This document shows positions 59,073 through 64,000 of a stretch of DNA of 64,000 nucleotides, piece after piece (the stretch's first letter is position 1; each line of letters starts with the position of its first letter). The notes under the pieces were generated by a model that saw nothing but the letters and a program-made list of their open reading frames with translations, did no database searches and was not told where the DNA came from. The position numbers and the translations under genes were made by a program. Where the stretch lies: assembly GCA_020161135.1 (NCBI GenBank), contig JAIUOB010000002.1, forward strand, positions 248,001-312,000, given 5' to 3'. The DNA comes from Gemmatimonadota bacterium. GTDB lineage: Bacteria; Gemmatimonadota; Gemmatimonadetes; Gemmatimonadales; Gemmatimonadaceae.

Positions 59073-59810
59073 ATGTCCACGCCCCGTCGCGATTTCCTGC
59101 TGCATGCCGGCGCTGCCTCCCTCGCGTCCCTCACCCTCCCGGCGATCGCGCGTGGCGCGGACGCATCGGCGTCGCACGCCGCGTCCCGCTCCGAGGCCAC
59201 CGTGCTGCGCGAGGGGCTCGAGGCGTGGGAGGCGGAGTGGCGCGACGGACAGCCACCACAGGCGCCGGTGTGGGACACGAGCTGGACGCAGAGGATCACC
59301 GGCAAGCACAAGGCGATGTTCGACGTGCCCGAGATCGAGGGCGGCGCCGGCGTCTTCCGTGCCTCCATCTGGGGGCGTCAGTTCACCGATGTGCTCAAGC
59401 TCCAGCCCAGCGACATCTCCACGGTCATCGTGATTCGCCACAGCGCCATTCCGCTGGCGATGAACCAGGAATTCTGGACGACCTACGAGGTGGGCAAGCA
59501 GTTCAAGATCAAGGGCGACGACGGCAAGACGATGAAGCTCAATCCGATTCTCGCCAAGCCCGACGCCACCGGCAGCGGTTCGCCCTTCCAGCTGGACAAG
59601 CAGATCGCTGGCGGCGCGATTGTGCTCGGGTGCAACCTCGCCTTCGGCGGCATCGTCTCGATGATCGTCAAGCAGGACAAGCTCAAGATGCCCGAAGCGC
59701 GCACCAAGGCGCTCAGCATGCTGGTGCCGGGCGTCATCCTGCAGCCCAGCGGCATCTTCGCGAACGTCATGGCCTGCGAAGCGGGGTGCGCGTTCGTGCA
59801 GGCGGTGTAG
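59073..59810 (+). CDS. Tat-exported DsrE-like protein
   Basis: A 245-residue protein. MSTPRRDFLLHAGAASLASL has the RRDFL twin-arginine motif and hydrophobic stretch, so it is exported folded. The mature domain (about 60-245) has a DsrE-like layout: STVIVIRHSAIPLAMN (first strand with His), AGGAIVLGCNLAFGGI (strand with a Cys) and VPGVILQPSGIFANVMACEA followed by GCAFVQA, which resembles the terminal 'v.vpSGv...q..G.ay' of DsrE/DsrF-type sulfur-relay proteins. The assignment is from pattern, not a search. The start ATG gives a compact Tat signal; longer frames upstream lack one. Both its stop and the stop of the opposing tldE-like gene sit in one palindrome. Confidence 0.7.
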   Translation: MSTPRRDFLLHAGAASLASLTLPAIARGADASASHAASRSEATVLREGLEAWEAEWRDGQPPQAPVWDTSWTQRITGKHKAMFDVPEIEGGAGVFRASIWGRQFTDVLKLQPSDISTVIVIRHSAIPLAMNQEFWTTYEVGKQFKIKGDDGKTMKLNPILAKPDATGSGSPFQLDKQIAGGAIVLGCNLAFGGIVSMIVKQDKLKMPEARTKALSMLVPGVILQPSGIFANVMACEAGCAFVQAV

Positions 59811-59847
59811 CCCGCACGGCGCACCCCGCGTGCGCCGTCTACACCGC
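59802..59847. terminator. Palindromic bidirectional terminator spanning two stop codons
   Basis: The outer arms GCGGTGTAG (59802-59810) and CTACACCGC (59839-59847) are complementary. Inner arms ACGGCGCAC (59816-59824) and GTGCGCCGT (59830-59838) are complementary around a CCCGC loop, with a 5-base CCCGC bulge on the left. Both stop codons (TAG on each strand) are in the outer arms, so transcription from either side meets the hairpin at once. Confidence 0.75.
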
Positions 59848-61242
59848 GTCCGACAGACTCGAGAAGGTGAAGTCGCGCACCTTGAGGGGCGGCATGTACA
59901 CCGCGCCGCCGGCGCCGAGGTTCTCCGAGGCGTTGATGCGCACACTCGGCCCCAGTGCCTCGAGGTTGTTGAGGAAGAAGATCGGGCTCTCGTTGAACCG
60001 GAAGTTCTTGATGGGGCGCGTGACCTTGCCGTTCTCGATGAGGAACGTGCCGTCGCGCGTGAGGCCCGTGTAGAGAATCGTGCGCGGGTCGACGCTGCGG
60101 ATGTACCAGAAGCGCGTCACCAGCACCCCGCGCGCGGTGCTCTTCACCATGTCGGCGATGCTCGACGTACCGCCCAGCATGCGCAGCGAACGGGCGCCGC
60201 CGAAGCCACCGCCACCGGCCCGCGTGGGCGCGACGTTCTTCTGCTGCGCCCAGTAGCGGTCGTAGTTGAGGTTCTTCACCACGCCGTTCTCGATCCACAC
60301 CACCTTCTCGAGCGGCACACCGTCACCATCGAACCCGCCGGTCATGCTCGGCGCGTCGGCCGGGTCGGTGAGCAGGGTGACGCGGTCATCCACCACCTTG
60401 AGCCCGAGCTTGTTGCCGCCACCGGGCTTGGAGAAGAACGAGCGCCCTTCGTCCGCCGCGCGCGCCTGCATGGCGCCGGTGATGAGCTGCACGAGGTTGC
60501 CCACCGCCGTGGGCTCGAGGATGGTCGTGTAGCGCCCCGGCTCGATGGCCACCGGGCTCCGACTGTCGCGCGCCTTCTGCACCGCCGTCGCGGCCACCGC
60601 GGCGGGGTCGAGATCGGCGAAGGTCGATCCATCGCTACACGCCCACCCGCTGCCCGTGCCATCGGGACTGCGCACGGTGGCCGTCATCGTCACCGTCGAC
60701 GTGGCGTCGTAGGCGAACAGCCCCTTCGAGTTGGCGAGGGCACTCGCCCCGGCGCGGCACTCGATGAAGCCGGTCGCGACGAGGTTGTTCGCGCGCGCCA
60801 GCTCCGTCACGATCTTGGCCGCCGCCGCCCGCTCAGCCGGCGACGGCATGGACAGCGCCCGCTCCCGCAACGGCGGGTACGTCTGCGCGCCCAGCTCCGG
60901 CATGCGTTCCGGGTTGGGCGGCACGAGCTGCGCGATCTCGTGCGCCTGCTTCGCCGCCGCGGCCAGTGACGCCTCGTCGAGCCGGTTGGTGTTCACGCTG
61001 GCGCTGCGGTTCCCCACCGTCGCCGTGATCGTGACCTGCGTGTCCTGGTTCTCGCCCGACGTGGTGACCTGATTGAGCGCGAAGCGCGTGTCGGCGCGCG
61101 CCGTGCTGTTGATGGTCACGCGCGTCTCCTCGGCCGGCGAGTGCCGGAGGGCGCGCTGCGCGATCTCCTGCGCTTCCGCGCGCGAGAGCACGTTGACCGG
61201 CGCGAACAGCGAACGCGGGGCGCTCATGCGTGAGGAGCTCAT
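59839..61242 (-). CDS. tldE: TldE/PmbA-like protein
   Basis: A 467-residue protein of the TldD/TldE (PmbA) family. TldE is the non-catalytic partner that stabilises TldD in the heterodimeric peptidase. Family segments: ENQDTQVTITATVGNRSASV in the N-terminal lobe, TSTVTMTATVRSPDGTGSGW, GRYTTILEPTAVGNLVQLI and the barrel region FDGDGVPLEKVVWIENGVVK through GLTRDGTFLIENGKVTRPI. No HExxxH is present, as expected for TldE. It has no signal peptide. The start overlaps the tldD stop (ATGA), so it is translated right after TldD, the usual order in a coupled pair. Confidence 0.93.
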   Translation of the reverse strand: MSSSRMSAPRSLFAPVNVLSRAEAQEIAQRALRHSPAEETRVTINSTARADTRFALNQVTTSGENQDTQVTITATVGNRSASVNTNRLDEASLAAAAKQAHEIAQLVPPNPERMPELGAQTYPPLRERALSMPSPAERAAAAKIVTELARANNLVATGFIECRAGASALANSKGLFAYDATSTVTMTATVRSPDGTGSGWACSDGSTFADLDPAAVAATAVQKARDSRSPVAIEPGRYTTILEPTAVGNLVQLITGAMQARAADEGRSFFSKPGGGNKLGLKVVDDRVTLLTDPADAPSMTGGFDGDGVPLEKVVWIENGVVKNLNYDRYWAQQKNVAPTRAGGGGFGGARSLRMLGGTSSIADMVKSTARGVLVTRFWYIRSVDPRTILYTGLTRDGTFLIENGKVTRPIKNFRFNESPIFFLNNLEALGPSVRINASENLGAGGAVYMPPLKVRDFTFSSLSDAV

Positions 61243-62888
61243 GCGCGCCTCCCGGTGTTGATGATGTTGGTCTGCGCGAACAGCGACGGCACACAGCCGT
61301 GGCTCACGGCGTTCGACTGCCCCGGCTGCCCCTTCGCATCACCGAAGGCGCCACCCAACTGGTAGCTGCGCGGGCCACCGACGGCCTTGAGGTTCTTCCA
61401 GAAGTCCGGCGTGCGGAACTGGTAGGCGACATCCTTGAGCTGCCCGACGATCTTGCCGCCGCGCACCTCGTAGAAGAGCTGTCCCGCGAACTGCCCGTTG
61501 TAGCGCTGCTGGTCGATCGAGAACGAGCCGTCCCCGACAATGGCGATGCCGCGATCCATCTTCGCGATCATGCTCTCCCAGGTGTCGTCGTTGCTGCCAG
61601 GCAACTGACTCACGTTGGGCATGCGCTGGAACTGCACGTCGGCCCAGCTTTGCGCGTAGCTGCAGCCGTAGCTGCGCACCGGCTTGCCGATGCGCCGGTA
61701 GTAGTCGCCCATGAGCGTGGCCTGCTCGCGCGTCGTCTGGTAGTCGACGAACACGCCGTCCTTCACGATGTCGAACTTCACCGGCTTCACGGCTTCATCG
61801 TCCCAGCCGATGGCGCCCAGCGATCCGGGCTGCTCGCGGTCGCCGACGATGTTCATGAGCGGCGAGCCGTACTGCAGCTTGCCCAGCACCGCGTCTGGCG
61901 GGGCGACGAAGCTCGTGCCGGCGTAGTTGGCCTCGAAGCCGAGTGCGCGGTCGAGCTCCGTGGGGTGCGCGATGACCTCGTGAATGGTGAGCCAGAGATT
62001 GGACGGATGCAGCAGCAGGTCGTAGCGGCCCGGCTCGACCGGCTTGGCGCTCAGCTTCTGCACCGCGAGTTCGGCCCACTCCGGCGCGCGCTCCCGCAGG
62101 CGACTGCCGGTGACGTGCTCGTAGCCGAGCCCCATGGGCGCGACTTCGTTGCTCGCGACGCTCTGGAAGTCGCTGAAGTCGGCCGACACGGCCGTGACCG
62201 AGAGCTGCGGATAGGTGCGGAAGATCGTCTGCACGATGTAGGAGTCGTCGGTCGTCATGAGCGACTTCTCCTCGCGCAGGAAGAACATGCTGGAGTTCAC
62301 CGTGCGCACGCCCTTCACCTTGAGCGCAGCCTCGTTGGCCGCGAGCAGGAAGGCGACCTTGTCGGGCACGCTGATGGTGAACGGGTCGACCTGGATGGGG
62401 CTGCGCCAGGTGCCCTGCTGCTTCCCCTCGGTGGGCGCGAGCACGACCGGCCGCAACTGCGACGCCCGGTTGGCGCGGGCCTGCTCGAGGGCGGCCCGCG
62501 TGACGCGCGCGATGTTGTCGGCATCGAGCGTGCTGGTGGCCGCAAAGCCCCACGCGCCGTCGACGAGGGTGCGCACGCCCAGGCCGAAGGTGTCGGTGTC
62601 GCTCACCCCCTGCACGATGCGGTCGCGGGTGCTGACGTTCTGCTGGCGGCGCGCGGCGACGCGCACATCGGCGTAGCTGGCGCCCCCGCGGCGCGCCACG
62701 TCGAGCGCGGTCGCCATGAGCGCCTTGATGGCCGGGTCGTCCACCGGGACCTGGTCGAGGCCGGTGAGGGGGCGCGGCCGCAGGATGGCGGCCTGCGCGG
62801 GGGCGGGCGCCACGAGGGCACCGGCCGCCAGCGTTCCGGCGGCCACGGTGGCGCCGGTTCTCAGGAAGTCGCGTCTGGAGGGAGACAT
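61239..62888 (-). CDS. tldD: TldD-like metallopeptidase with Tat signal
   Basis: A 549-residue peptidase of the TldD family. The catalytic site is HEVIAHPTELD (H303, E304, H308), matching HExxxH of TldD, and a Cys near residue 532 (QSNAVSHGCVPSLF) takes the place of the third metal ligand. Unlike E. coli TldD, which is cytosolic, it begins MSPSRRDFLRTGATVAAGTL with a twin-arginine motif and hydrophobic stretch ending near AQA, so it should be exported folded. ATG 62888 is chosen over a TTG 6 bases upstream. E. coli TldD/TldE cut unfolded peptides such as microcin B17 leader or CcdA. Here the substrates would be periplasmic. Confidence 0.93.
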   Translation of the reverse strand: MSPSRRDFLRTGATVAAGTLAAGALVAPAPAQAAILRPRPLTGLDQVPVDDPAIKALMATALDVARRGGASYADVRVAARRQQNVSTRDRIVQGVSDTDTFGLGVRTLVDGAWGFAATSTLDADNIARVTRAALEQARANRASQLRPVVLAPTEGKQQGTWRSPIQVDPFTISVPDKVAFLLAANEAALKVKGVRTVNSSMFFLREEKSLMTTDDSYIVQTIFRTYPQLSVTAVSADFSDFQSVASNEVAPMGLGYEHVTGSRLRERAPEWAELAVQKLSAKPVEPGRYDLLLHPSNLWLTIHEVIAHPTELDRALGFEANYAGTSFVAPPDAVLGKLQYGSPLMNIVGDREQPGSLGAIGWDDEAVKPVKFDIVKDGVFVDYQTTREQATLMGDYYRRIGKPVRSYGCSYAQSWADVQFQRMPNVSQLPGSNDDTWESMIAKMDRGIAIVGDGSFSIDQQRYNGQFAGQLFYEVRGGKIVGQLKDVAYQFRTPDFWKNLKAVGGPRSYQLGGAFGDAKGQPGQSNAVSHGCVPSLFAQTNIINTGRRA

Positions 62889-62968: not shown

Positions 62969-64000
62969 ATGCGCCGCTTCATCCCTGCCCTCTGCCTCGC
63001 CGCCGCGCCGTGCGTGGCCCCCTTCGCCCCGCTTGCCGCGCAGCCGCTGCGCATGGCACCGGGCGCCCCCACCACGCTCACGCCGGAGCAGCAGGCCGCC
63101 CGCGCCATCTACAAGGAGATGGTGGACGTCAACACCGTCGACTCGGTGGGATCGGTGACGAAGCTGGCGGAGCTGCTCGCCAAGCGATTCCGCGACGCGG
63201 GCTTCCCGGCGAGCGATGTGCGCATCGTGGGCCCGGCCAACGCGCCCACCAAGCACAACCTCATCGTGCGCTATCGCGGCAAGACGCCGTCACGCGGCAA
63301 GCCGATCCTGCTGCTCGCGCACCTCGATGTCGTGGCGGCCCTCCGCAGCGACTGGCCGCGCGATCCGTTCACCATGGTCGAGGAGAATGGCTGGTTCCTC
63401 GGCCGCGGCGTGGCCGACGACAAGTCGATGGCGGCGGCACTCACCGCCAACGTGCTGCGCTACAAGCGGGAAGGGTGGGTGCCCGAGCGCGACCTCATCC
63501 TCGCGCTCACCGCCGACGAGGAAGGCGGTGGCAGCAACGGCGTCTCGTGGCTCATCGAGAACCATCGCGACCTCATCGACGCCGAATACGCGATCAACGA
63601 GGGCGGCGGCGGCACGCTGGACATGGACGGCAAGCCGCTCTTCCACAGCATCCAGGCGGCGGAGAAGGTCTACACCGACTTCACGCTCACCGTGCTCAAC
63701 ACCGGTGGCCACTCGAGCGTGCCGCGCAAGGACAACGCCATCTACTCACTGGCACAGGCGCTGGTGAAGATTCAGGCGTACACGTTTCCGGTCGAACTCA
63801 ACGACGTGACGCGCCCGTTCTTCGAGCAGACGGCCAAGGTGGAGATGCCGTCCCTGGCCGCCGCCATGCGCGCCATCGCGGCCAACGCGAACGACACGGC
63901 GGCGGCGCGCATCATCTCCACCGACCCGCGCTACGCGTCGATGCTGCGCACCACCTGCGTGGCCACCCGACTGGGCGGTGGCCATGCCAACAACGCGCTG
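62969..64000 (+). CDS. Secreted M20 family metallopeptidase, 3' end cut by window
   Basis: The N-terminal 344 codons of a zinc peptidase; the frame is open to the window edge. A signal peptide (IPALCLAAAPCVAPFAPLAAQ) indicates export. Catalytic landmarks: ILLLAHLDVVAALRSDW (metal His, Asp), WFLGRGVADDKSMAAAL (bridging Asp), ALTADEEGGGSNGVSWL (Glu pair) and VLNTGGHSSVPRKDNAIYSL at the lid domain. It differs from the cytosolic M20 dipeptidase at 22.6-24.0 kb in having a signal. It is divergent from tldD with 80 bases between starts. It may act on peptides from the same compartment as TldD/TldE. Confidence 0.93.
   Translation, partial: MRRFIPALCLAAAPCVAPFAPLAAQPLRMAPGAPTTLTPEQQAARAIYKEMVDVNTVDSVGSVTKLAELLAKRFRDAGFPASDVRIVGPANAPTKHNLIVRYRGKTPSRGKPILLLAHLDVVAALRSDWPRDPFTMVEENGWFLGRGVADDKSMAAALTANVLRYKREGWVPERDLILALTADEEGGGSNGVSWLIENHRDLIDAEYAINEGGGGTLDMDGKPLFHSIQAAEKVYTDFTLTVLNTGGHSSVPRKDNAIYSLAQALVKIQAYTFPVELNDVTRPFFEQTAKVEMPSLAAAMRAIAANANDTAAARIISTDPRYASMLRTTCVATRLGGGHANNAL

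Follow-up and report, generated by a model that had tools for sequence, protein, structure and literature searches.

TldD carries a Tat signal and TldE does not: a putative exported TldD/TldE metallopeptidase with a proposed Asp metal site in Gemmatimonadota

A TldD/TldE pair encoded in a 64,000-nucleotide stretch of Gemmatimonadota DNA (the window) probably constitutes a folded, extracytoplasmic metallopeptidase that is exported by Tat hitchhiking and has a His-His-Asp metal site. As read from the genes, a signal is present on one subunit only and its partner has none, which is the arrangement of a hitchhiker complex. In the established Tat hitchhiker complexes HybOC and PaoABC, subunits that lack a signal are exported only in company with the tagged one (PMC4273604). 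A search of openly accessible literature found no paper on an exported TldD/E; it is quite possible that a database flags a Tat signal on such TldDs.

Both proteins of the window (Table 1) match the three PmbA/TldD domains (PF01523, PF19290 and PF19289) above the Pfam curated cut-offs. The best score of TldD against the NCBIfam TldD equivalogs (NF008006, NF040952) is 85.9 bits, below the cut-off of 635, and TldE scores 35.9 bits against the PmbA equivalog (NF008268), below the cut-off of 438; the two are therefore homologues and not equivalogs. The AlphaFold models are good (pLDDT 82.9 for TldD, where the signal region is of low confidence, and 86.9 for TldE). By Foldseek the TldD model is matched best by E. 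coli TldD (5nj5_A, E 1.2e-33, TMt 0.79) and the TldE model by a TldE (6j6a_A, E 3e-31), i.e. the TldD and TldE/PmbA folds are recovered. The pair resembles the E. coli TldD/TldE (PmbA) microcin-processing metalloprotease (PDB 5NJ5; PMC5810440) in both subunit folds, in the HExxxH motif, in the conserved Glu270, Asp272 and Lys456 positions and in having one catalytic and one non-catalytic subunit. E. coli TldD differs in that it has no signal, uses Cys454 as third ligand and is only about 20% identical.

Table 1. Features of the tldDE locus and its neighbours, in window coordinates
Feature	Position	Strand	Basis
tldD, PmbA/TldD metallopeptidase catalytic subunit, 549 aa	61239..62888	-	Pfam domains and AlphaFold model
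tldE, non-catalytic partner, 467 aa, without signal peptide	59839..61242	-	Pfam domains and model
ATGA overlap of tldD stop and tldE start (translational coupling)	61239..61242	-	read from sequence
Tat signal peptide, residues 1-33, predicted cleavage between APAQA and AIL	62790..62888	-	read from sequence
RRDFL twin-arginine motif, residues 5-9	62862..62876	-	read from sequence; conservation
HEVIAH (HExxxH), residues 303-308, two His zinc ligands and catalytic Glu	61965..61982	-	aligned with E. coli 262-267
Asp517, position of E. coli zinc ligand Cys454	61338..61340	-	alignment
M20 peptidase, Sec-type signal, divergent, runs off the window	62969..64000	+	PF01546, E 7.5e-19
Tat-signal protein (MSTPRRDFLLHAG), no known Pfam family, convergent with tldE	59073..59810	+	read from sequence

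How convincing is the signal? The TldD N-terminus reads MSPSRRDFLRTGATVAAGTLAAGALVAPAPAQA, followed by AILRP, with an SRRDFL motif and an AQA cleavage site. Judged by its residues, the protein has what a Tat substrate would be expected to have, namely an SRRxFLK-like n-region, a moderate h-region, an AxA site and a TatC, which was found in the source genome. The canonical RRDFL signal described in the initial annotation is present, and R5, R6 and F8 do not vary among 53 aligned orthologues. As the motif is also carried by all clade members with a readable N-terminus, it is not a chance occurrence. TldE, annotated as signal-less, does lack a signal: it starts with MSSSRMSAPRSLFAPVNVLSR, and the domain begins directly. 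A longer TldE N-terminus that hides a signal was considered, but no in-frame upstream RRxF with a real h-region was found.

A survey of TldD/TldE pairs in the phylum, which the initial annotation had proposed, shows that the Tat signal occurs on TldD only and is universal in the clade; a local oddity is thereby ruled out. The source genome, from Gemmatimonadota and 93.6% complete, encodes exactly three TldD/E pairs, with RR-x-F-L on all three TldDs and on none of the three TldEs. A similarity search gave 65 loci, 64 of them of the window kind and one a signal-less archaeal gene, and the family is present in 108 of 200 genomes of the phylum. Among 183 distinct TldDs that were read, 152 from 8 families belong to the window's clade and have a readable N-terminus; all 152 carry a Tat signal, also the 15 among them in which active-site residues have been lost. 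The motif is of the RRxF type in 151 distinct signals, and lipobox forms occur in 6 Gemmatimonadota Tat signals. Untagged sequences in the clade score range are limited to three truncated where the fetched stretch ends and three from other phyla; phyla beyond Gemmatimonadota were sampled via plasmid records and one archaeal match. None of the paired TldEs of the clade has a signal. Five TldEs (L175, L176, L177, L152 and L153) have an N-terminal extension with RR motifs (RREVI, RREAI, RRELI, RRDAI) but no hydrophobic region; these could be remnants of Tat signals or have arisen by chance.

It is very improbable that the TldD N-terminus fails to work as a Tat signal, leaving an ordinary TldD/E in the cytosol or tethered to the membrane. 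The characterised TldD/E system is not described as exported, which speaks for such a reading, but the RRxF and h-region are constant over the clade and lipobox variants occur. In addition, some families of the phylum have a further, canonical-like type of TldD that lacks a signal; it provides an internal control and shows that the signal is not a general feature of the TldD family.

Does TldE have another TldD to pair with? Eight genomes were enumerated with two Pfam domains, and 27 of 27 TldDs in them are tagged. There is thus no untagged TldD in these genomes for TldE to serve, and that candidate explanation was rejected.

Several lines tie TldE to TldD. The ATGA pointed out in the initial annotation is a genuine 4-base overlap, and in 130 distinct D-E pairs of the Tat clade the genes overlap by 4 bases in 95 and by 1 base in 15. 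Gene order varies (D-E, E-D, tandem D-E-D-E and D-D-E), and the signal always stays on D. The TldD and TldE trees match (mirror-tree r of 0.934 in the clade, against 0.184 for the best of 500 permutations), which is the co-inheritance expected of partners, although alone it is no proof of contact. None of 122 clade TldEs has the HExxxH motif, and TldE should therefore need TldD. The lower Cys content of clade TldEs (0.34% vs 0.71% in controls) is a weak comparison with only six controls and is given no weight here.

Export of TldD alone, as a monomer or homodimer, with TldE left in the cytoplasm, e.g. as a chaperone or a proofreading partner that dissociates ahead of translocation, is unlikely. 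In favour of such a reading, TldE itself lacks a signal. TldE-type homodimers have been crystallised, and Hu et al. (2012, as cited in PMC5810440) reported an active TldD homodimer from an archaeon, so that an exported TldD-only form is conceivable. In E. coli, however, activity needs both subunits (PMC5810440). The TldE of the window has the full TldE fold, lacks the catalytic motif and tracks TldD closely. Moreover, known Tat chaperones are small dedicated proteins, unlike a 49 kDa subunit homologue such as TldE.

Of interest is the metal site, where the initial annotation was right about one element and wrong about another. The HExxxH motif is intact, as had been claimed, and is invariant in 53 aligned TldD orthologues. 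The supposedly intact catalytic Cys is replaced: Asp517 (FGDAKGQPGQ) aligns with E. coli Cys454. E. coli TldD binds its metal through His262, His267 and Cys454, with Lys456 tethering the same strand (PMC5810440). Where 11 diverse TldDs of other types invariably have Cys-Gly-Lys, the window TldD has Asp-Ala-Lys. Profile-profile alignment pairs Asp517 with Cys454, and a gap-free comparison with Mycobacterium (INCGKAQPGQ vs FGDAKGQPGQ) is unambiguous. At the third-ligand position Asp is found in 137/137 catalytic Tat-clade TldDs and Cys in 20/20 signal-less catalytic TldDs, the N-terminus of one of the latter (L146) being uncertain. The Cys-to-Asp change itself is already known, since Ghilarov et al. 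(2017) state in one sentence, without a link to export, that Asp can replace Cys 'in Gemmatimonas sp.' (PMC5810440); Asp517 would thus represent a variant site within the TldD/PmbA family. In the literature searched, no connection of the change with an exported clade came to light. A thermolysin-like His-His-Asp site, with Asp as a predicted metal ligand, is the best explanation of these residues.

The cysteine in the SHGC motif of the window TldD is residue 532, separate from the third-ligand position, and paralogues have SHGS. Of the 137 catalytic Tat-clade TldDs, 135 have Cys409 or Cys532, so that a cysteine may have some role near the active site. A conserved Cys409-Cys532 disulfide is ruled out, as the two do not co-occur. 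A gene annotated as a metalloprotease in Streptomyces phage Success (NC_073472.1:6519-6764) matches about the last 80 TldD residues only, at 57% identity; this stretch bears the third metal ligand.

The closest relatives found outside the phylum are actinobacterial TldD/PmbA pairs (Mycobacterium ulcerans plasmid, L134; Nonomuraea, L135), with 40-43% identity. They share the D-E gene order and the SHGC motif with the window pair, but their TldDs have no Tat signal and keep the third-ligand Cys. In a maximum-likelihood TldD tree of 32 rows, the Actinobacteria (Cys, no signal) are sister to the Tat and Asp clade (support 99/96), which itself has support 81/81; Heimdallarchaeota and Pseudomonas/Burkholderia (Cys, no signal) lie outside. 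Signal-less TldD/E would thus be the ancestral form on this tree, and the simplest reading is that the Tat signal and Asp were gained on one branch. The two changes would then represent a single linked event and not replicated evidence.

Two TldDs lie on the canonical branch, outside the window's clade, and make up a separate lipid-anchored form: L137 (Parabacteroides distasonis plasmid) and L199 (Gemmatimonadota genome G188). Like the window TldD they have a Tat signal that is missing from the neighbouring TldE; unlike it they have a lipobox after the signal, an E. coli-like sequence and the Cys ligand. Export therefore does not require Asp.

At least two lines (f5/G006 and G190) later lost the active site but kept the Tat signal, and a gene in G071 may represent another such loss. 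Both HExxxH and the third ligand are missing from the tagged TldDs L159, L160, L161, L163, L165 and L166 (f5), L156 (G006) and L212 (G190). Those of family f5 are encoded in D-D-E operons, where each TldE is accompanied by two inactive TldDs. Inactive exported TldDs presumably bind rather than cut. The broader scenario, in which the whole clade moved to the envelope by hitchhiking, exchanged a redox-sensitive Cys for Asp on the branch of signal gain and in places lost catalysis later while keeping export, is favoured, if by a little.

Might some TldD be made without its signal, from an internal start or as a retained precursor, giving a cytosolic TldD/E beside the exported form? The ancestral state was signal-less, TldE still is, and there are in-frame Met codons downstream of the TldD signal, e.g. 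in LMATAL around residue 58. This Met, however, is predicted by the model to fall within the first helix of the domain. Moreover, Asp is found at the ligand position throughout the clade, and none of the eight enumerated genomes keeps a cytosolic Cys copy. A dual location thus appears quite improbable.

Hitchhiking of the assembled pair, the preferred reading, can be outlined as follows. TldD and TldE would be made from coupled genes, and would fold, bind metal and form the complex while still in the cytoplasm. Passage of the entire heterodimer (roughly 105 kDa, estimated from length) through the inner membrane would be directed by the Tat signal of TldD, which would then be cleaved, or lipidated in a few relatives. 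PaoABC has a size of 135 kDa (PMC4273604) and is exported, which places the TldD/E heterodimer within range. The likeness to HybOC and PaoABC (PMC4273604) extends to one tagged and one untagged subunit and to a folded metalloprotein complex; those are, however, redox enzymes with demonstrated co-export, whereas TldD/E is a peptidase for which co-export is proposed. On the outside, the hollow heterodimer would trim unfolded peptides with its His-His-Asp site instead of the cytosolic His-His-Cys. Metal loading before export would account for the use of Tat and not Sec, and an Asp ligand might be less prone to oxidation than Cys outside the cytoplasm.

The gene neighbours offer a hint of context. 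The secreted M20 peptidase of the initial annotation was borne out by its Pfam match and Sec-type start, and it is transcribed divergently from tldD. An M20 gene is also found beside close orthologues in about 18 other loci, which suggests a functional link to TldD/E; from this context one might guess that the two act side by side in trimming periplasmic peptides. The other neighbour had been called a Tat-exported DsrE-like protein. It has the Tat signal, but the likeness to DsrE was not borne out by Pfam, where there is no match even at E<=1. Its relatives lie beside close orthologues in 16 loci, and the gene, being convergent, is outside the tldDE operon. A signal-less TldD/TldE pair on a Burkholderia stagnalis plasmid (L136, 1-6426) lies directly 3' of a dipeptide ABC transporter, which hints at a part in peptide utilisation.

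The known functions of TldD/E are the removal of microcin leaders and the degradation of peptides, and it has been treated as an intracellular enzyme. The pair described here is, on the comparisons made, a conserved variant of this enzyme, and its two subunits are probably exported jointly in the folded state. The natural occurrence of the Cys-to-Asp change in the clade bears on the dispute over whether Cys454 is a metal ligand or part of a disulfide. If true, an envelope TldD/E would bring a non-redox enzyme into the small set of Tat hitchhiker complexes and would represent a natural case of a metal-site change that accompanies a change of compartment. It would also be an unrecognised periplasmic peptidase in a common phylum.
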